DNA of 64,000 nt. It comes from an uncultured Bacteroidota bacterium. Lineage in GTDB: Bacteria; Bacteroidota; Bacteroidia; 2-12-FULL-35-15. This document shows positions 10,591-58,961 of this stretch, piece by piece. The stretch is from contig CAINDA010000041.1 of assembly GCA_903847205.1 (NCBI GenBank), positions 62,001-126,000 of the forward strand, written 5' to 3'. How positions within the stretch are numbered: the first letter of the stretch is position 1; each line of letters starts with the position of its first letter. The notes beneath the pieces are model-generated. The model searched no databases. It was not told the origin of the DNA and saw only the letters and a list, made by a program, of their open reading frames with translations. The translations under genes were made by a program, and so were the position numbers.

Positions 10591-11247
10591 ATGGTATATC
10601 AGCAGATAAAATATCTCTTTAAAAAGGAAGTAAAGCTTGAAATGCGCAATAAATACGCCTTAGGCGGTATTTTGTTATATGTTGTTTCAACAGTATTTGT
10701 AAGCTATTTATCATTCAAACAGATTATTAATCCTGCAACTTGGAATGCTTTATTTTGGATCATTTTACTTTTCGCATCTATTAATGGTGTAGCTAAAAGT
10801 TTTATAAATGAAACAAGGGGCAGGCAGCTCTACCTATATACGCTGGCAAGCCCCCAGGCAGTTATTCTTTCAAAAATTCTTTACAATTCATTGCTCCTGA
10901 CAGTTTTATCAGTTTTGTGTTTATTAGTCTATTCATTATTTATTGGAAACATTATTCAGGATCTTCCATTATTTTTAATTACACTTTTAGCTGGCAGCAT
11001 GGGCTTTTCGTCTTTATTGACAATGGTTTCGGCGATAGCTTCAAAAACAAGCAATAACTTTACTCTGATGGCAATTTTAAGCTTTCCCATTATGATGCCT
11101 TTACTAATGGTACTCATAAAACTTTCAAAAAATGCTATTGACGGTTTGGATAAATGGGATTGGAATTCTTTGTTTATCTTAATGTTTTTAAACCTGATAA
11201 TTGTCACTTTATCATATTTATTATTTCGTTACCTTTGGCGTGATTAG
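10591..11247 (+). CDS. ccmB: Heme exporter protein CcmB
   Basis: CcmB is the integral-membrane component of the CcmAB transporter, which powers release of heme-loaded CcmE in system I cytochrome c maturation. This 218-aa protein has six hydrophobic segments and the family-typical opening (FKKEVKLEMRNKYALGG). The conserved NETRGRQLYLYTLASP segment is at about 70-86. It opens the operon ccmB-ccmC-ccmD-ccmE-ccmF. The partner ATPase CcmA is not encoded in this window. Confidence 0.93.
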   Translation: MVYQQIKYLFKKEVKLEMRNKYALGGILLYVVSTVFVSYLSFKQIINPATWNALFWIILLFASINGVAKSFINETRGRQLYLYTLASPQAVILSKILYNSLLLTVLSVLCLLVYSLFIGNIIQDLPLFLITLLAGSMGFSSLLTMVSAIASKTSNNFTLMAILSFPIMMPLLMVLIKLSKNAIDGLDKWDWNSLFILMFLNLIIVTLSYLLFRYLWRD

Positions 11248-11289
11248 GGAGAAAGCCGTTTATTATCAGAAAAATATAATGTGTAAAAG

Positions 11290-11955
11290 ATGAAAAAAAA
11301 TTGGTGGAAGATTATTGCATTTGTATTTGTACTTTATACCATCATTGCAGGGTTTCTTTTTAAAGTGCCTGCCCAGCCTATTCTTCATGAAAGCATCAGA
11401 AATCTTTATTTTCATGTGCCCATGTGGTTTTCAATGATGACAATACTTTTCGTATCTGTTTGGCACAGCATCAAATATTTAAGTAAATCTAATATTGAGA
11501 GTGACATTGTTGCTAGCAGAGCAGCACATACCGGAATGCTATTCGGCGCTTTGGGGCTGGTAACTGGGTCAATCTGGGCTCGTTATACCTGGGGGGCATG
11601 GTGGGTTGCTGATACGAAATTAAACGGCGCGGCTATCACTACGTTAATCTACACGGCATATTTTATTTTGCGCGGTTCAATTGATGAAGAACAAAAGCGT
11701 GCGCGGATTGCAGCTGTTTACAATATATTTGCTTACGTAATGCTTATTGTTTTTTTAATGATACTGCCCCGCATGAGTGATTCATTGCATCCCGGCAACG
11801 GCGGTAATCCGGGTTTTAATAAATATGATTTGGACAGCAATATGCGGGTTGTATTTTATCCTGCTGTAATCGGATGGATACTGCTTGGTGTATGGATACT
11901 GAGCCTGCAGATCCGTTTTGAAAAAATAAAACGTAAAATATATTTAAGAGATTAA
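11290..11955 (+). CDS. ccmC: Cytochrome c maturation protein CcmC
   Basis: CcmC presents heme to CcmE in the inner membrane. This 221-aa protein has six hydrophobic spans. The heme-handling WWD motif is present as YTWGAWWVADTKLN (about 97-110), flanked by candidate axial histidines in FHVPMW (about 41-46) and SLHPGN. Length is close to the usual value of about 220-245 aa. It starts 43 bp after ccmB and is followed by the small ccmD-like gene. Confidence 0.95.
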   Translation: MKKNWWKIIAFVFVLYTIIAGFLFKVPAQPILHESIRNLYFHVPMWFSMMTILFVSVWHSIKYLSKSNIESDIVASRAAHTGMLFGALGLVTGSIWARYTWGAWWVADTKLNGAAITTLIYTAYFILRGSIDEEQKRARIAAVYNIFAYVMLIVFLMILPRMSDSLHPGNGGNPGFNKYDLDSNMRVVFYPAVIGWILLGVWILSLQIRFEKIKRKIYLRD

Positions 11956-12020
11956 ATAACCTAGATAATTCAAAACCCTTAGGGTATCATACAAGAAATA
12001 AATAATATAAAATTAATAAA

Positions 12021-12239
12021 ATGAAAAAGCTTCTTTCCATTATAGTATTATTGTTAATATCTTCGGTGATTTTCGCACAGGCTGCACAGCCGGTTGAAAT
12101 GGCTGAGGGTATGTTCCAGTCCGGAAAAATTTATGTGGTTGTTACAGTTCTTTCCGTGATTTTTTTAGGGATAACCGGCTATTTAATTTCTATTGACAGA
12201 AAGATCAGCAAAATGGAGAAAGAATTGGAAAAGAAATAA
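12021..12239 (+). CDS. ccmD: CcmD-like small membrane protein
   Basis: This 72-aa protein has a cleavable-looking hydrophobic N-terminus ending in IFAQ, then one membrane helix (IYVVVTVLSVIFLGITGYLI, 38-57), then a basic tail predicted to be helical (DRKISKMEKELEKK). Size, topology and position between ccmC and ccmE match CcmD, which helps release holo-CcmE from CcmC. Sequence conservation in this family is low, so the assignment rests mainly on context. Confidence 0.75.
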   Translation: MKKLLSIIVLLLISSVIFAQAAQPVEMAEGMFQSGKIYVVVTVLSVIFLGITGYLISIDRKISKMEKELEKK

Positions 12240-12292
12240 TTACATTTTTATACAAAGAGAAATTTTATAACACGTTTTAAAATTAAAAACAA

Positions 12293-12688
12293 ATGAAAAA
12301 GATACATATTATCGGAATAATAATTATTGCAGTTTCAATCGGCGCAATACTTACTACACTTAACAATACCAGTACTTATGCCAGTTTTACTGAAGCTGCG
12401 CAGTCGCCAGGAAGTGAATTTCACGTTGTCGGGAAACTGAATAAAGAAAAAGAATCAACTTATGATCCGAAGATAAATGCCAATTTGTTTTCATTTTTTA
12501 TGGTTGATAATAAAGGCACTGAGCGTAAAGTAATTTTGAATAAAAATAAACCTCAGGATTTTGAACGTTCAGAACAGATTGTTCTGATTGGTAAAATGAA
12601 AGGCGAAGAATTTATTGCTTCTGATATTTTAATGAAATGCCCCTCGAAATATAACGATGGCAAACCTCAGGAAACCGCTGTAAAATAA
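12293..12688 (+). CDS. ccmE: Heme chaperone CcmE, CxxxY variant
   Basis: CcmE carries heme covalently from CcmC to the cytochrome synthase. The 131-aa protein has an N-terminal membrane anchor (residues 4-22) and the OB-fold domain (FHVVGKLN, FFMVDNKGTERKVIL, VLIGKMKGEEFIASDILMKC). Classical CcmE binds heme through the His of H-x3-Y. Here the equivalent position reads C116-PSK-Y120, so Cys replaces His. A CxxxY CcmE is known from archaea and some bacteria that lack CcmH (variant system I). No ccmH is present in this window, which is consistent with that variant. Confidence 0.93.
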   Translation: MKKIHIIGIIIIAVSIGAILTTLNNTSTYASFTEAAQSPGSEFHVVGKLNKEKESTYDPKINANLFSFFMVDNKGTERKVILNKNKPQDFERSEQIVLIGKMKGEEFIASDILMKCPSKYNDGKPQETAVK

Positions 12689-12758
12689 ATCAGTATTGTT
12701 TCCGGCTCTCCGGTAAAAAATAATTAATCAAAACTTCCGCGAAAATTTATTTGCAAAT

Positions 12759-15221
12759 ATGGTATATACAGGCGAGCATTTAGTAATTGGTCAAGTTGGA
12801 AATCTTTTTGTAATTCTCTCCTTTGTTTTTGCACTCTTAGCAGGTATCAGCTACTTTTTTGCTGCAAAAGACAATGATGCAGCTCCTTCCTGGAAACGTA
12901 TTGCCCGCATCTCTTTCAGGATACACGGGCTCTCGGTAATCGGCATTGTGATTTCATTATTCATCATGCTTCAAAATCATTATTTTGAATTTGAATATGT
13001 GTGGCATCACAGCAGCCGGGAAATGCCGATGCGTTATATTTTATCCTGCTTTTGGGAAGGGCAGGAGGGAAGTTTTTTACTTTGGACTTTCTGGCATGTT
13101 GTAATCGGTTTCATTTTGCAGCGTTCGGCAAAAAATTGGGAAGCTCCTGTAATGGCTGTCATTTCATTAGTTCAGGCATTTTTGGCTTCCATGATGCTTG
13201 GTGTTTTTATTTTGGAGCATCGTATCGGCAGTAATCCATTTACAGTTTTACTTCGTGAACATCCCGATTTTGCTAATATTCCGCTTTTCAGCAATCCGCA
13301 GTATTTAGAGAAATTAGACGGGCGCGGACTAAACCCTTTACTACAGAATTATTGGATGACTATTCATCCGCCGACGCTGTTTTTGGGATTTGCCTTAACT
13401 GTAGTTCCTTTTGCTTATGCAATTGCAGGTCTATGGAAAAAGAACTTTACTGAATGGATAAAACCAGCACTGCCATGGACATTTTTTGGTGTGATGGTAT
13501 TGGGTACCGGTGTTTTAATGGGCGGTGCCTGGGCTTACGAAGCATTGAGTTTCGGCGGCTTTTGGGCTTGGGATCCTGTTGAAAATGCATCTTTAGTTCC
13601 CTGGCTTACACTTGTAGGCTCAGCACATTTAATGCTGATTAACCGTAATAATGGTCAATCGTTATTTATTACATTTTTCTTGGCGCTGCTTTCATTTTTG
13701 CTGATACTCTACTCTACATTCCTTACCAGGAGCGGTATTCTGGGCGAAACATCTGTTCATGCATTTACCGATTTAGGTATGTCAGGCCAGCTCCTGATTT
13801 ATTTGTTTTTCTTTTTAATACTCAGCATAATTCTTATTGTGATTAATTGGAAACACTTTCCAAAACAAAAAGAAGAAGAGGGTATTTGGTCGCGTGAATT
13901 TTGGATGTTTGTGGGTGCAATAGTATTGCTGGTTTCTTCTTTTCAGATTATTTTTTATACATCCATGCCTGTTTGGAATAAGCTGTTTAGCCTGAATAAG
14001 GCGCCTGCAAAAGATGTAATAAATTTTTATAATTCCTGGCAGCTGCCCTTTGCATTTTTAACAACTTTATTAATCGCTGCAGGGCAGTACTTAAAATATA
14101 AAAATACGGATATAAAAATTTTCGTTAAAAAGATTTCCTTATCATTTTTAACAGCTTTGGTGCTTACTTTATTAGCTGCATATTTATTAGGTTTCGCCAA
14201 ACCATTTTATGCTCTATTGTTTTTCTCTTCCATTTTCGCCGTGACAGCCAATCTAGATTATATGCTGCGTGTACTCAAGGGAAATGTAAAAAAAGCCGGC
14301 GCATCCATTGCACATATTGGTTTCGGATTGATTCTGCTGGGAGCATTGATTTCCACTTCTAAAAAAGATACGATTTCACAAAACACTTCAGGGAAAAATA
14401 TTGAAAGTTTAATGGATAAATTTTCGAACAATGATAATATTTTATTGACCCAGGGAGACACACTGCCTATGGGAAAATATTTTGTATCCTATATCGGAAA
14501 ACGATTCGAAGGCGTTAACGTTTATTTTAACGTGGATTATTTTTCGAAAAATGCTGCAAAAGGCTATAAAAAAGAATTCTCGTTATCTCCTATTGTGCAG
14601 ACCAATCCTAAGATGGGTAATGTGGCTGAGCCAGACACAAGGCATTTTTTAACCTTTGATGTTTATACGCATGTTACCTATGCTGCTATAGATAATTTGC
14701 AGGAAAAAAAAACCGGGTCTAACGACGAATATACTCCAGCAAAAAATTACACATTGAAAAGAGGGGATACTATTTTTGCTTCAAATGCTATAATTGTTTT
14801 TGATTCACTTTCAACCCGTTTCGATAAAACAAAATTCAATCTGGCGGCTGAAGATATTTCTGTAATGGCCCATTTACGAGTGTTAGATGTTTCAAAAAAA
14901 TATGAAGCAGCACCGCTTTATGTAATTCATAATAATACTTTGCAGCCTGTTCCTGCAGTTATAAAGGAGCTGGGATTACAATTTGTGTTTCAGAAAATTC
15001 ATACCGAAGACGGCAGAATTGACATCACTTTGCAGGAAAAAAAGGCGAACGTCCGCGATTTTATTGTTATGCAGGCAATGGTTTTTCCTTATATCAATGT
15101 TTTATGGATTGGCTGCATTATAATGATAATAGGCAGTGTGCTCGCTATTGTTGAAAGAATCAGAAAGGGCCGGATTTCAGCGGTAAAGCTTTTGTCAAGT
15201 GAAAAAAAAATTGAACTTTAA
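12759..15221 (+). CDS. ccmF: Cytochrome c heme lyase CcmF/CcsA family
   Basis: This 820-aa polytopic protein is the cytochrome c synthase component that joins heme to CxxCH motifs on the periplasmic side. The WWD-type heme motif is at GGFWAWDPVENASLVPWL (about 266-283). Conserved LLQNYWMTIHPPTLFLGFAL (195-214) and WEGQEGSFLLWTFWH (99-113) are typical of CcmF. A large periplasmic domain occupies about 535-770, followed by a last helix. It closes the ccm operon, 70 bp after ccmE. The WWD core has G-F-W-A-W rather than the usual W-G-G-W-W-x-W, a mild deviation. Confidence 0.92.
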   Translation: MVYTGEHLVIGQVGNLFVILSFVFALLAGISYFFAAKDNDAAPSWKRIARISFRIHGLSVIGIVISLFIMLQNHYFEFEYVWHHSSREMPMRYILSCFWEGQEGSFLLWTFWHVVIGFILQRSAKNWEAPVMAVISLVQAFLASMMLGVFILEHRIGSNPFTVLLREHPDFANIPLFSNPQYLEKLDGRGLNPLLQNYWMTIHPPTLFLGFALTVVPFAYAIAGLWKKNFTEWIKPALPWTFFGVMVLGTGVLMGGAWAYEALSFGGFWAWDPVENASLVPWLTLVGSAHLMLINRNNGQSLFITFFLALLSFLLILYSTFLTRSGILGETSVHAFTDLGMSGQLLIYLFFFLILSIILIVINWKHFPKQKEEEGIWSREFWMFVGAIVLLVSSFQIIFYTSMPVWNKLFSLNKAPAKDVINFYNSWQLPFAFLTTLLIAAGQYLKYKNTDIKIFVKKISLSFLTALVLTLLAAYLLGFAKPFYALLFFSSIFAVTANLDYMLRVLKGNVKKAGASIAHIGFGLILLGALISTSKKDTISQNTSGKNIESLMDKFSNNDNILLTQGDTLPMGKYFVSYIGKRFEGVNVYFNVDYFSKNAAKGYKKEFSLSPIVQTNPKMGNVAEPDTRHFLTFDVYTHVTYAAIDNLQEKKTGSNDEYTPAKNYTLKRGDTIFASNAIIVFDSLSTRFDKTKFNLAAEDISVMAHLRVLDVSKKYEAAPLYVIHNNTLQPVPAVIKELGLQFVFQKIHTEDGRIDITLQEKKANVRDFIVMQAMVFPYINVLWIGCIIMIIGSVLAIVERIRKGRISAVKLLSSEKKIEL

Positions 15222-24236: not shown

Positions 24237-24908
24237 ATGAGCCGCATGAGTTTTTAACAGCTGCATTTAATCTTCCTTAGTAAACAAGTAAATCTTTTAA
24301 GTTTGAAGTTCACTCAACAGACAAGTTATACTTTTTAACCCTGACACAGTTTATTGAACAGACTCTAAACAATCCCTCTCAGAGTAAAAACAGTCCTGCT
24401 CAGAGTAAAAACACTCCTGTTCAGAAGAGAAACAGTCCTGCTCAGAGTAAAAACAGTCCTGCTCAGAGTAAAAACACTCCTGTTCAGAAGAGAAACAGAC
24501 CTTCTCAGAGTAAAAACAGTCCTGCTCAGAGTAAAAACAGTCCTGCTCAGAGTAAAAACACTCCTGTTCAGAAGAGAAACACTCCTGTTCAGAAGAGAAA
24601 CACTCCTGTTCAGAAGAGAAACACTCCTGTTCAGAGTAAAAACAGTCCTGCTCAGAGTAAAAACACTCCTGTTCAGAAGAGAAACAGACCTGCTCAGAGT
24701 AAAAACACTCCTGTTCAGAGTAGAAACAGTCCTGTTCAGAGTAAAAACACTCCTGTTCAGAAGAGAAACAGTCCTGCTCAGAGTAAAAACAGTTCTGTTC
24801 AGAATAACTGCCTAAAGGTTTAAAATTTTTGCACTAAATTTACCGCCTGCCGGACCGCTTTGAAACGAAATAATAAAAGCATCCGAGATAAAATGCAAAG
24901 GAGAAACA
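24237..24908. other. 672-bp gene-free region dominated by tandem array A
   Basis: Between the RlmI-family gene and the TMTC-like gene (both plus strand) no gene with a usable start was found. Positions 24359-24799 are the 21-bp array. The frame through the array is open from about 24286 to 24822 but contains no ATG, GTG or TTG start. After the array there is a candidate -7 box, TAAATTTA near 24834, for the next gene. Confidence 0.7.
24359..24799. repeat. Tandem array A: 21 units of exactly 21 bp
   Basis: Twenty-one head-to-tail units run without any indel; the first is degenerate and a partial unit follows at 24800. Consensus unit: CAGAGTAAAAACAGTCCTGC plus T. Variation is restricted: the first 12 bases are CAGAGTAAAAAC or CAGAAGAGAAAC, and the last 9 are AGTCCTGCT or ACTCCTGTT, with few exceptions. 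There are no unique spacers, so it is not a CRISPR. Most units have an A5 tract at a constant phase. Confidence 0.97.
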
Positions 24909-29121: not shown

Positions 29122-29706
29122 GATGAAATAAAATTATTTAGAGTTGAAAATTTTAAGACTGCAAATTTATAAAAAAGGATGATTACTCAATAATTGAATT
29201 GATGAATTGAAGCAAACAAATCATGAGATTGAACAAATAGGCAGTAAGAATAAAAAAATCGATGATGAAAATGGACAAATAGAATGTAAAAGTTAACAAA
29301 TGGGTTGTGAAAGTTAAAAAATCGCATCTCACAGTTGAAAAATCGAAAGTGAAAGTGAACAAATCGAATGTGAAAGTTAACAAATCGCATCTAACAGTTG
29401 AAAAATCGAATGTGAAAGTCAACAAATGGGATGTGAAAGTTGAAAAATCGAATGTGAAAGTGAAAAGAACGCATGTGAAAGTAGAAAGAAGGCTTCTCAA
29501 TGTAAACAAATGGAATGTTAATTAAACAAATGACATCTTGAAGTAAACAAATCGCGTCTTGAAGTTGAAAAATCGCTTCTACAAGTAAACAAATCGTATC
29601 TCCAAGTAAACAAATACCATCTTGAAGTGAACAAATGGCTTCTTGAAATGAACAAATGGCATCACGAAGTAAACGAATGGTTAATCAGATGAGAGATAGA
29701 GTTTAA
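29122..29706. other. 585-bp gene-free region dominated by tandem array B
   Basis: This region lies between the start of the YebC-family gene and the end of the membrane-protein gene, both minus strand. Apart from the array at 29211-29692 it holds only about 90 bp of AT-rich leader. Open frames on both strands here (for example 29307-29525 plus, 29183-29509 minus) are by-products of the 21-bp period. Confidence 0.75.
29211..29692. repeat. Tandem array B: about 23 degenerate units of 21 bp
   Basis: About 23 consecutive units keep a 21-bp register from 29232 to 29504, then after one 20-bp unit (29505-29524) continue in register to 29692. The first unit, at 29211-29231, is degenerate. Consensus is roughly AACAAATCGNATGTGAAAGT plus T, with the second half alternating between GTGAAAGT and CTTGAAGT forms. 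Units are more diverged than in array A, which suggests an older array. Consensus words are unrelated to arrays A and C. Confidence 0.93.
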
Positions 29707-45983: not shown

Positions 45984-46505
45984 ATGAAACTGCAAGGACA
46001 ACACATTTCACTTAGGGCGCTTGAGCCTGCTGATATTGATGTTTTATATAAATGGGAAAACGATACTGAAATTTGGAACGTCAGTAATACGCAGACTCCT
46101 TTTTCGCATTTTATCCTGGAACAATATATTTCAAACGCTCATCAGGATATTTACTCAGTAAAACAATTAAGATTAATTATTAGTCTCCTTGAAAATAAAT
46201 CAGCAATCGGAAGTATTGATTTGTTTGATTTCGATCCCAATCATCTGCGTGCAGGAATTGGAATTTTAATTGCCGATAAAACTGAGAGAGGGAAAGGATA
46301 TGCCTCAGAAGCTCTGGGAATGCTGATCGAATATTGTTTTCTTACTTTGAACCTCCATCAATTATACTGCAATATTACTTCAGATAATGAGCCGAGTATT
46401 CTGTTATTTCAGAAACATGGTTTTTTGATAACCGGAGTTAAAAAACAATGGATCAGGGAGGCTGCGGGCTTTAAAGATGAATTGCTTTTACAAAGGATTC
46501 GGTAA
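45984..46505 (+). CDS. GNAT-family N-acetyltransferase (RimJ/RimL-like)
   Basis: This 173-aa protein has the GNAT fold of the Acetyltransf_3 (RimJ/RimL) group. It opens ISLRALEPADIDVLYKWEND. The acetyl-CoA pyrophosphate loop is ERGKGYASEALGM (about 100-112), and NLHQLYCNITSDNEPSILLFQKHGF is the C-terminal motif. The substrate, a protein N-terminus or small molecule, cannot be told. Confidence 0.85.
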   Translation: MKLQGQHISLRALEPADIDVLYKWENDTEIWNVSNTQTPFSHFILEQYISNAHQDIYSVKQLRLIISLLENKSAIGSIDLFDFDPNHLRAGIGILIADKTERGKGYASEALGMLIEYCFLTLNLHQLYCNITSDNEPSILLFQKHGFLITGVKKQWIREAAGFKDELLLQRIR

Positions 46506-46541: not shown

Positions 46542-48602
46542 ATGAAATTCTCTTTTAGGAATATACTTTTATTTATTTTGTTTTCTTCCGTTATTTTCAC
46601 AATGGTGTATTGCGGGAATCCGGCTAAACAGCCAGCAAGCATCAAATTACAAACCTCCGATAAATATCTTAACCACAGCGATTCAGCAAAATATATTGGT
46701 ATGAATACCTGCAGGCTCTGTCACCAGGCAATTTACAATTCTTTTATTGCAACAGGCATGGGTAAAAGTTTTGATCATGCCGGCAGGCAGAAAAGTGCTT
46801 CTAAAATTGATAAACATTCTGTTTTATATGATAAGTATTTGGATTTTTATTACCGTCCGTTTTGGGATGGCGACAGCATGAAAATTATGGAGTTCCGCTT
46901 AAAAGGTAAACCCGCCCGAATGAACGAAATCATTCGTTCGGGCGGGGACACAATTTATAAGCGCATCGAAACGATTGATTATATTATAGGTTCGGGGCAG
47001 CATACCAATTCGCACATTTATAATACTAATGGCTATCTGCATCAAATGCCGATGACCTATTACACACAAAAAGGAAAATGGGATTTTCCTCCCGGCTTTG
47101 AAAACGGCTCTAATACCCGCTTTTCACGTAAGATAGGATTGGAATGTATGAGCTGTCATAATTCATTTCCTGATTTTACCGCAGGCTCTGAAAATAAATT
47201 TAATTCAGTTCCAGAAGGCATAAACTGCGAGCGATGCCACGGCCCGGGCAGTATTCATGTGCAGCAACGCCAAATGGGTATTAAAGTGGATACATCAAAG
47301 TACATCGACTATTCAATTGTGAACCCGGGGAAATTGCCAATTGATCTGCAGTTCGATGTCTGCCAGCGCTGCCACCTTCAGGGAAATACAGTATTAAAAG
47401 AAGGAAAATCATTTTTCGATTTTAAACCTGGAATGAAATTATCCGATTATATGACTGTGTTTCTTCCGCGCTACAAAGATGCTGATGACCAGTTTATAAT
47501 GGCTTCTCATGCAGACAGGTTAAAGCGCAGCAAATGTTTCATAAAAAGTTTTAAACCTGAAACTGATGTATCGTCTTTACGCCCCTATAAAAACTCTTTA
47601 ACGTGCGTGACCTGTCATAACCCTCATGTGAGTGTGAAAGTAACCGGTACAGAAGTATTCAATAACGCTTGTAAAAACTGTCATAATTCAAACACTCAAA
47701 ACGGCTTGTGTACGGAGAAGCTGGAAATAAGAATTAAAATTGAAGACAACTGCGTCAGCTGCCACATGCCTAAATCGGGTTCGATTGATATTCCTCATGT
47801 TACTGTCCATGATCATTTCATCCGTAAACCGATGAAAAAGAAGGAAGTTGAAAAAGTGAAAGAGTTTATCGGCCTTTATGCTGTTAATGAAAAAAATCCC
47901 GGCAATGCTGTTAAAGCAAAAGCATACATACAGCAGTTTGATAAGTTTGATAATAACCCTGTATTCCTTGATTCTGCAATGAAGTATCTGCCTGAAAAAA
48001 CGCTGAATGATGTGAAACAAAATTTTAAATTATTAGTGCATTTGTATTTCATGAAGCAGGATTATACGAAAATTCTATCCTTTGTAAGTGATGCTGGAAG
48101 AGAAGATATACTGAATTCTGTTCTGACAAAAAAATCATGGGACAATGCGGACGCATGGACTCTATACAGAATCGGAGAAGCATATTACAATAGCGGTAAT
48201 GTTACCGATGCATATACATTTTATAAAAAAGCAAATGAGTATGCACCTTACAATCTTGAATTTAAAAACAAGCTCGGAGCTTCTTTGATGGCTCAGAATA
48301 AGGTTCAGGAAGCTGCTCCAATTTTCGTGGAAATATTAAAAGAGAATCCTAAATTTGTACAGGCAATTAATAACCTGGGATACGCTGATTTAGTGAGCGG
48401 CAAAGTTATAGAAGCTGAAGAATTATACAATCGTGCTTTAAAACTTGATCCTGACTATGAGCCCTTGCTGATGAATATGGCTGGTTTTTATATCTTTAAA
48501 AAGAATAATAAGGAGGCCGAGAAGGTATTAAAACAAGTACTGCAAAAAAATCCGAAAAATGCGCAGGCAAAGCAGGTGCTGGAGCAGTTGGAAAAAAATT
48601 AA
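46542..48602 (+). CDS. Heptaheme c-type cytochrome lipoprotein with C-terminal TPR domain
   Basis: This 686-aa protein starts with a type II signal (LFSSVIFTMVYC, lipobox Cys near residue 24), so it is probably a membrane-anchored lipoprotein. Seven CxxCH heme sites are present in order: CRLCH, CMSCH, CERCH, CQRCH, CVTCH, CKNCH and CVSCH. The arrangement around CERCHGPGSIH resembles cytochrome c554-type multihemes. Residues of about 540-686 are three or four TPRs (YRIGEAYYNSGNVTDAYTFY, NNLGYADLVSGKVIEAEELY). Maturation needs a cytochrome c system such as the ccm operon at 10591. The redox partner is unknown. Confidence 0.88.
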   Translation: MKFSFRNILLFILFSSVIFTMVYCGNPAKQPASIKLQTSDKYLNHSDSAKYIGMNTCRLCHQAIYNSFIATGMGKSFDHAGRQKSASKIDKHSVLYDKYLDFYYRPFWDGDSMKIMEFRLKGKPARMNEIIRSGGDTIYKRIETIDYIIGSGQHTNSHIYNTNGYLHQMPMTYYTQKGKWDFPPGFENGSNTRFSRKIGLECMSCHNSFPDFTAGSENKFNSVPEGINCERCHGPGSIHVQQRQMGIKVDTSKYIDYSIVNPGKLPIDLQFDVCQRCHLQGNTVLKEGKSFFDFKPGMKLSDYMTVFLPRYKDADDQFIMASHADRLKRSKCFIKSFKPETDVSSLRPYKNSLTCVTCHNPHVSVKVTGTEVFNNACKNCHNSNTQNGLCTEKLEIRIKIEDNCVSCHMPKSGSIDIPHVTVHDHFIRKPMKKKEVEKVKEFIGLYAVNEKNPGNAVKAKAYIQQFDKFDNNPVFLDSAMKYLPEKTLNDVKQNFKLLVHLYFMKQDYTKILSFVSDAGREDILNSVLTKKSWDNADAWTLYRIGEAYYNSGNVTDAYTFYKKANEYAPYNLEFKNKLGASLMAQNKVQEAAPIFVEILKENPKFVQAINNLGYADLVSGKVIEAEELYNRALKLDPDYEPLLMNMAGFYIFKKNNKEAEKVLKQVLQKNPKNAQAKQVLEQLEKN

Positions 48603-48736: not shown

Positions 48737-49795
48737 ATGGCAAAAAAGAAAAAAACGTCGTTTTTTAAAAAGATAATAATTTCTCTGCTGCTTATCCTGC
48801 TTATTGCAGGGGGGGCTGGAGGGTATTATGTTTATAAAACAATTTATCAGTCGAATATAAATTTAGGGGATAAAAAATCATTGATTATTTATATTCCTAC
48901 AGGATCTAAATTTGAAGATGTAATACGCATTTTAGGCGAAAATAATATCTTAAAAAATCGAGCAACTTTTGAGTTTCTTTCAGAAAAAAAGAAATATAAA
49001 AATGCCGTTAAGCCCGGCAAATACCGCATATTGGCGAATATGAGCAACAATGCTTTGATTAATCTGCTGCGAGCCGGTATCCAGGAGCCGATTGAGATTA
49101 ATTTTAACGGAATAAAAACTAAAATGCAGCTTATCTCCCGCTTATGCAGACGTATTGAAGCTGATTCCCTTTCACTCTATACTGCAATCAACGATAACGG
49201 ATATTTAAGGAAATACGGTTTAAACTCTGATAATGTGCAGACTTTATTTATTCCGAATACGTATGAGTTTTATTGGAATACTTCCGTTGATGAATTCTTT
49301 AACAGAATGGCTAAAGAATACAAAACTTTTTGGACAGATGCCCGAAAGAAAAAAGCGAAAGAAATCGGCTATTCGCAAACTGAGGTAAGTATATTGGCAT
49401 CAATTGTTCAGGGCGAGCAATGCTGCGATAATTCCGAAAAGAAAATAATTGCAGGTTTATATATCAACAGGTTAAATAAAAATATGCTTCTGCAGTCTGA
49501 CCCTACTGTTATTTTTGCAATCGGAGATTTTTCTATTCAGCGTGTTTCCAATGAGCAGACAAATTTTCAATCCCCTTATAATACTTATGTTAATAAAGGT
49601 CTCCCTCCTGGACCCATTGGATTTGCTCAGGAATCATCCATTGATGCTGTTCTTAATTATGAGAAAAACGATTATATTTTTATGTGCGCGAAAGAAGATT
49701 TGTCGGGTAAGCATTATTTTGCCAAAACATACGAGCAGCATTGTGTTTTTGCCCAGAAATATAGAGATGCATTGAACAGCAGAAACATTCATTAA
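48737..49795 (+). CDS. mltG: Endolytic transglycosylase MltG
   Basis: MltG cleaves nascent glycan strands in the periplasm. The 352-aa protein has a short basic N-terminus, one membrane helix (IIISLLLILLIAGGAGGYYV) and the YceG-like domain. The signature reads ASIVQGEQCCDNSEKKIIAG (221-240), then LYINRLNKNMLLQSDPTVIF (241-260), then SPYNTYVNKGLPPGPI. In E. coli the corresponding stretch is SIVEKET. Here the first Glu is Gln225 and the second is retained as Glu227. Only one is catalytic, so activity is probable but should be checked. Confidence 0.9.
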   Translation: MAKKKKTSFFKKIIISLLLILLIAGGAGGYYVYKTIYQSNINLGDKKSLIIYIPTGSKFEDVIRILGENNILKNRATFEFLSEKKKYKNAVKPGKYRILANMSNNALINLLRAGIQEPIEINFNGIKTKMQLISRLCRRIEADSLSLYTAINDNGYLRKYGLNSDNVQTLFIPNTYEFYWNTSVDEFFNRMAKEYKTFWTDARKKKAKEIGYSQTEVSILASIVQGEQCCDNSEKKIIAGLYINRLNKNMLLQSDPTVIFAIGDFSIQRVSNEQTNFQSPYNTYVNKGLPPGPIGFAQESSIDAVLNYEKNDYIFMCAKEDLSGKHYFAKTYEQHCVFAQKYRDALNSRNIH

Positions 49796-58430: not shown

Positions 58431-58961
58431 TGTGATTTTTTTTGTAAAAGTAGGGAATTTTTATGAACTACCGCGGATTACAGAGAAAAAATTGAAGCTG
58501 AAAGTATAGTTTATTGCTTCAGCAGTTTTTTCATTTACACATGTTCTGATCCAAAGCTATAAATCCATCGCATAGTCCCAAAATATAACCATGTGACCCA
58601 GCAGCGGGTTCACCCAATTTAATAATACTACCGTCCAGTTCGAAAGCGCGTCTGCGAAATTCCAATGCGCGTCCGTTCAATTCAAAGGGACGATTGCCCG
58701 GCGATAAAAGGCGTGCCTATAATTCAAAAAGGCGGGCGCCCAACGCAATAAGGCGGGTGCTCGGAACAAAAAGGCGGTCATCTTATTCAAAAAGGCGGAC
58801 GCCCGGAGCAAAAAGGCGGGCAGCTTATTCAAAAAGGCGAGCGCCGAAAAATAACTTTATTCCTTAATATTTATTGGAGTAATAATTTGTTTTATAATTA
58901 CGCTTGCAGAAATCAAATATAGAATACCTTTCTAAAAGTTTAATGACTTAAAAAAATTATT
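58431..58961. other. 531-bp gene-free divergent region with tandem array C
   Basis: This region lies between the divergent STAS and GNAT genes. Positions 58630-58839 are the third 21-bp array; degenerate traces of the same period may extend further left. The rest is AT-rich, with no usable ORF. A weak -7-like TACCTTTC lies near 58925. Confidence 0.7.
58630..58839. repeat. Tandem array C: 10 units of exactly 21 bp
   Basis: Ten consecutive units have no indels. Each unit ends in a conserved AAAAAGGCG-type block (ATTCAAAAAGGCG in the best copies), preceded by a more variable 10-12 bp. The array is visibly richer in G+C than its surroundings. One frame is open for about 40 codons but has no start codon. 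The consensus is unrelated to arrays A and B. Confidence 0.93.

Follow-up and report, generated by a model that had tools for sequence, protein, structure and literature searches.

The window, a 64,000-nucleotide stretch of a contig from an uncultured Bacteroidota bacterium, carries an ORF whose product joins a multiheme cytochrome to a C-terminal domain of tetratricopeptide repeats (TPR), as a first-pass annotation had proposed (Table 1). Exactly seven CxxCH motifs, starting at residues 57, 202, 229, 274, 355, 377 and 404, were found in the 686-amino-acid protein, far above the expectation from 10,000 shuffles of the same protein (mean 0.012, maximum 2), and its heptaheme nature is thereby upheld. 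Several Pfam TPR families were matched well over their cut-offs at residues 541-683 (TPR_19, 5.4e-19), and AlphaFold predicted helices over residues 455-685, with a block pLDDT mostly of 63-95. The anatomy and the family placement of this heptaheme-TPR protein can be regarded as near certain.

Table 1. Features of the heptaheme-TPR gene and of the genes at the two edges of its slot, in window coordinates. The limits of the TPR domain are based on Pfam TPR families, the AlphaFold model and the repeat register.
Feature	Position	Strand	Remarks
Heptaheme cytochrome-TPR fusion gene	46542..48602	+	ORF, 686 aa, ATG start
Hydrophobic N-terminal helix ending in Cys24	46542..46613	+	Non-canonical lipobox, TMVY before the Cys
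Cytochrome half, residues 46-432	46677..47837	+	Profile matches to OcwA, c554, NrfA
Heme motif 1, CRLCH, residues 57-61	46710..46724	+	
Met73 (TGMG)	46758..46760	+	Candidate distal heme ligand
Palindromic in-frame insertion, 36 bp	46911..46946	+	Outside the family core
His154 and His158 (GSGQHTNSH)	47001..47015	+	Orthologue-specific His pair
Heme motif 2, CMSCH, residues 202-206	47145..47159	+	Candidate open heme; aligns with OcwA motif 2
Heme motif 3, CERCH, residues 229-233	47226..47240	+	Followed by conserved His239
Heme motif 4, CQRCH, residues 274-278	47361..47375	+	
Heme motif 5, CVTCH, residues 355-359	47604..47618	+	Followed by conserved His362
Heme motif 6, CKNCH, residues 377-381	47670..47684	+	
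Heme motif 7, CVSCH, residues 404-408	47751..47765	+	Followed by conserved His419 and His425
Helical region, residues 455-527	47904..48122	+	Precedes the TPR; AlphaFold helices, block pLDDT mostly 63-93
TPR domain	48147..48596	+	Repeats from residues 538, 572, 606 and 640, plus capping helix
GNAT acetyltransferase	45984..46505	+	Upstream slot edge; PF13302, 7e-22
mltG/yceG endolytic transglycosylase	48737..49795	+	Downstream slot edge; TIGR00247, 6.7e-54, over cut-off

Cys24, at the end of the N-terminal helix, was invariant in all 35 near orthologues, which come mostly from one genus, so that counts over these rows are not independent. In the general pattern of bacterial lipoproteins, A, G or S directly precedes the lipid-bearing Cys. 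Because Tyr precedes Cys24 in the window protein, its lipobox is non-canonical, and 34 of the 35 near orthologues have Y, F, H, N, K or R at this position; A, G or S precedes the equivalent Cys in 22 of the 26 far homologues. A PROSITE-like lipoprotein pattern did not match the window protein, and matched 2/35 near and 21/26 far rows. The residue before the Cys has changed from A/G/S to Y/F/H/N/K/R throughout the clade of near orthologues (L001-L055) while the Cys itself stayed fixed. An ancestral lipoprotein signal likely lies behind this helix, and the Cys24 site is either accepted by the signal peptidase of the clade or left in an uncleaved helix. Of the lipobox claimed earlier, the hydrophobic helix and its Cys are borne out, and the residue before the Cys departs from the canonical form. 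The surface-export signal of Bacteroidetes lipoproteins, described in PMC5080379 as acidic residues at +2 to +6, looks different from what follows the anchor Cys here: the window protein has no acidic residue at these five positions, and none of 58 rows has more than two. An anchored protein, at the surface or in the periplasm, had been proposed; the anchor helix agrees with this, and the absence of the acidic signal (0/58) weakens the surface part.

The fusion is an old, conserved family found across phyla. All 61 aligned homologues contain exactly seven CxxCH motifs, and 59 of them continue into a C-terminal tail of more than 200 amino acids, the exceptions being L088 and L105 (25 amino acids each); this alignment leaves out same-genome duplicates, the contig-edge fragments L010, L035 and L056, and L024 and L049, whose chosen start removed the N-terminus. 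Twenty-four relatives were found by searching genome contigs. The gene was present in 30 of 41 relative genomes (8 of 17 genera). Of the 36 genomes in the window's order, an uncultured one that here amounts to one genus, 31 have it; one of the order's misses, G014, has a fragment of the gene at a contig edge. A survey of 198 genomes of the phylum, in which at most five candidates per genome were scored so that paralogue counts are lower bounds, gave matches in 16 at E 1e-30. In another class of Bacteroidota, 34 of 100 genomes had matches at E 1e-20, often with two or three paralogues, and 64 of the 66 listed places in that class have an open frame of at least 620 amino acids, long enough for the fusion. 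Beyond the phylum, a plasmid-borne protein of Granulicella tundricola (WP_013572974.1; Acidobacteriota) has seven CxxCH motifs followed by TPR and shares 26.5% identity with the window protein; public annotation calls it just 'tetratricopeptide repeat protein', and a second Granulicella match 'multiheme c-type cytochrome'. In the tree, the orthologue clade (42 rows including L055) was supported at 97/93, with paralogue clades outside it and with Granulicella and L105 on long branches. No heptaheme relative is encoded by any of 39 pattern matches on viral contigs. We found no paper on such a fusion in the open-licence PMC literature, and excerpts of PMC3495685 and PMC5585712 contain none.

Searched against the PDB with a 43-member profile, the cytochrome half matched OcwA (3.9e-18), cytochrome c554 (2.9e-9) and NrfA (7.6e-8), and single-sequence searches likewise placed it near these three. 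As judged from such matches, its kinship to OcwA, c554 and NrfA is remote, and it lies outside every curated family tried. The c554 of Nitrosomonas (1bvb), a four-heme cytochrome, aligns over the region of motifs 1-3, and the c554 family model (PF13435) matched 43/43 members; with 211 amino acids and no TPR, c554 itself is unlike the window protein. NrfA (PF02335) carries five hemes, with a CxxCK catalytic heme in most members, whereas the window protein has seven CxxCH motifs, and PF02335 weakly matched 4/43 members. The decaheme families GSU2203 (NF041028) and DmsE (TIGR03508) also matched 43/43 members, over residues 201-414 of the window protein, which has seven hemes and TPR instead of ten hemes; its scores (63.4 and 41.3 bits) fall far short of the curated cut-offs (325 and 192.2 bits). 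The best PDB match, 6i5b, is named 'Uncharacterized protein' in the match table and is taken by us to be OcwA of Thermincola potens, a nonaheme terminal reductase. The match covers motif 1 and motifs 2-7, and both proteins have the YVG..C..CH start, CE.CHGPG..H and CHMPK. According to PMC6703420, OcwA carries nine hemes and has a three-helix bundle at its C-terminus, unlike the seven hemes and TPR of the window protein.

Outside the CxxCH motifs, the candidate heme ligands H239, H362 and H425 are conserved in 61/61 rows, H419 in 58 and H323 in 56. Position 73, where the profile alignment to PDB sets Met73 of the window protein against the His of 'ETSHG' in OcwA and of 'KDTAHA' in c554, is Met in 53 rows, Lys in five, His in two and Thr in one; Met is found in 42/42 orthologues, and the 19 rows of other clades have Met 11, Lys 5, His 2 and Thr 1. 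The 61-row alignment thus offers six conserved distal candidates, five His and M/K/H73, for seven hemes. In the HMMER alignment, heme motif 2 pairs with the second motif of OcwA, and PMC6703420 describes hemes 2 and 5 of OcwA as penta-coordinate, with a His-His pair above the open distal site, and reports the reduction of nitrite and hydroxylamine by this protein. Since six ligands stand against seven hemes and heme 2 of OcwA is open, we infer that heme 2 may be open here as well. The correspondence is not exact, because heme 5 of OcwA is also described there as open and motif 5 is followed here by the invariant His362. His154 and His158 are both kept in 41/42 orthologues and in 0/19 rows of other clades; a seventh His ligand is therefore not a rule of the family, and in the window's clade one of the two may be the seventh ligand. 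Seven further residues (E117, S151, Y174, W180, N191, R193 and R196) are invariant or nearly so in the 61 rows, the last five all N-terminal of heme motif 2, and this conservation would exceed the needs of a plain electron wire. The heme half lacks a usable model, with pLDDT of about 30-50 in full-length AlphaFold predictions (24 sequences, TPR good) and a mean of 39.9 when predicted alone (25 sequences), so the ligand pairing is not visible.

TPR families matched all 38 scanned C-terminal tails, including one from Granulicella (L003, cut by the contig end, is omitted from these counts). The residue at repeat position 6 (R543, K577, N611 and N645) hardly varies among the orthologues, and its conservation would suit partner docking. 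A conserved groove defined by a first position set (2, 5, 6, 9, 12 and 13) was rejected: strong conservation appeared in near orthologues only and was absent in paralogue clades, and the groove positions of the literature were no more conserved than the remaining helix-A positions. The docking claim is therefore limited to position 6, which alone stands out; of the TPR-bound partner suggested at first, the idea of a docking module holds, with this position in its favour, and the literature groove set gives no further help. A PDB fold search with the predicted model returned generic TPR proteins. Among the best matches by both sequence and fold was the TPR superhelix of OGT (1w3b), from which the window tail differs in having only about four canonical repeats and in being predicted extracytoplasmic; we take the N/K/R that occupies position 6 throughout the repeats to resemble the Asn ladder of OGT.

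The gene order DapF - unknown - GNAT - heptaheme - MltG - phosphomutase recurs within the genus and across several families (DapF, like YpdA, TruA, AroK, RpoD, HtrA and GAPDH, is a neighbour name that we assigned from the sequence). The earlier remark that no known reductase gene is adjacent agreed with our inspection of the neighbourhood in the window. GNAT stands directly before MltG in five of the nine heptaheme-negative genera of the class examined (G027, G028, G033, G035 and G039) and in G008, a heptaheme-negative genome of the same genus (76% complete); DapF precedes MltG by 119 bp in G032, and in G026, G031 and G038 the slot order is different or lies off the contig. Among heptaheme-positive genera, G025, G040 and G077 have the gene outside this slot, and G034 and G037 keep one of the two slot neighbours. 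GNAT and MltG were rejected as operon partners of the heptaheme gene, since relatives devoid of it keep both, 63-132 bp apart and with no heme motif in the gap. The neighbours are thus not partners, because the heptaheme gene comes and goes alone. YpdA-like, TruA, AroK and Kelch genes near paralogues were likewise rejected, as they look like background synteny. Presence and absence at this slot provide natural pairs of genomes ready for comparison. Multiheme cytochromes are usually recognised via reductase neighbours, and the heptaheme-TPR gene has none in the window's clade.

Other neighbourhoods were seen in other classes. In L095, L096, L118, L121 and L123 a gene of the PorV/PorQ family is next to a heptaheme-TPR paralogue; four of the five also have, alongside, a large protein whose tail is T9SS-like. 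Six genomes (L147-L152) carry a tandem pair of different heptaheme-TPR genes together with a divergent gamma-glutamyltranspeptidase gene; in L147 and L149-L152 the pair is followed by a gene for a T9SS-sorted protein (sorting domain tested in 2/5).

We tentatively propose, at somewhat less than an even chance, that the protein is a periplasmic heptaheme cytochrome of OcwA/c554/NrfA type, stand-alone and anchored to the membrane, with an open heme 2 and a partner docked on its TPR. The heme sites, anchor helix, TPR tail, conserved design and independent slot are observed, and the mechanism that we infer from them would run as follows. Electrons would travel along a chain of six hemes, six-coordinate through five distal His and Met/Lys/His73. 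Heme 2 would have its distal side open, with the conserved segment 145-200 and, in the window's clade, His154 and His158 as its walls, and might bind or reduce a small molecule, e.g. a nitrogen or oxygen species. The TPR groove would hold the partner that delivers or receives electrons; our searches turned up no such partner. The enzymatic step is the weak link of this chain. A more specific version, heptaheme reductases across phyla with a catalytic open heme 2, a switchable Met/Lys/His axial ligand at position 73 and a TPR that recruits the redox partner, seems rather unlikely. Another serious possibility, against which we lean, is that no heme is open in the window's clade: His154 or His158 would supply the missing seventh ligand, making every heme six-coordinate, and the protein would only relay electrons from one periplasmic partner to another, with the TPR holding one of the two. 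The His pair of the orthologues would supply ligands enough, and the heme-copper oxidase genes (COX1) in 41/41 relatives imply an aerobic chain to serve, although COX1 is uninformative precisely because it occurs in all of them; against a pure relay stand the other clades, which have seven CxxCH motifs and no such pair, and the homologous heme 2 of OcwA, which is open (PMC6703420).

A role in surface wiring, in which the protein would hand electrons outward in concert with proteins of the outer membrane or exported by T9SS, is improbable. The PorV/PorQ and T9SS-type neighbours in other classes, the sole hint of a surface role, speak for it, yet no such neighbour occurs in the window's clade, the acidic signal is absent after Cys24, and the non-canonical lipobox may keep the protein in the inner membrane; the extracellular acceptor considered at first finds no support in this clade. 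Like the CcmI/NrfG TPR of heme-attachment systems, the tail could also be an in-built aid for assembling the protein's own hemes rather than a place where a redox partner docks, and PF23914 (TPR_CcmH_CycH) matched 33 of 38 tails. Generic TPR models, however, matched the tails equally well or better, ccmC/ccmE/ccmF-like genes are already in the window, and L088 and L105 have their seven motifs without a TPR tail, which leaves the assembly role quite doubtful. That the protein belongs to an established pathway of nitrogen metabolism, be it ammonification by NrfA, HAO/c554 or denitrification, as the remote similarity to c554 and NrfA might suggest, is very improbable: NrfA (PF02335) was found in 0/41 relatives, with nothing in the window's genome; NosZ, over cut-off in 2/7 of the other genera of the class that carry the heptaheme gene and in 7/9 of those lacking it, but not in the genome of the window, does not track the gene; nor does NirK, over cut-off in 4/41 relatives. 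With TPR in 38/38 tails besides, the homologues do not fall into an NrfA- or c554-type pathway devoid of TPR. Our best guess remains a small-molecule reductase or a redox relay located in the periplasm, with a TPR that docks a partner. If the open-heme reading is true, these bacteria possess a periplasmic redox enzyme that has yet to be characterised and that brings its own docking arm, and, under public labels such as 'tetratricopeptide repeat protein', a class of respiratory or detoxifying enzymes could be overlooked.

The ccmC-, ccmE- and ccmF-like genes of the window (10591-15221) lie some 31 kb away from it and the rest of the slot and score below curated cut-offs; the ORF at 10591 has no NCBIfam match.

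The 36-bp in-frame insertion is a GC-rich palindrome that adds 12 residues, PARMNEIIRSGG. Among relatives it occurs in L003 only, and is absent in close relatives including L006, the sister of L003 (tree support 100/100). The genome has related palindromes at other places (C45:242288 and C72:105523-105563), with no ORF of more than 90 codons across them, and the insertion behaves like a mobile palindromic element within the gene. The window also holds three 21-bp tandem-repeat arrays with differing units, at 24367-24807, 29256-29680 and 58725-58839.
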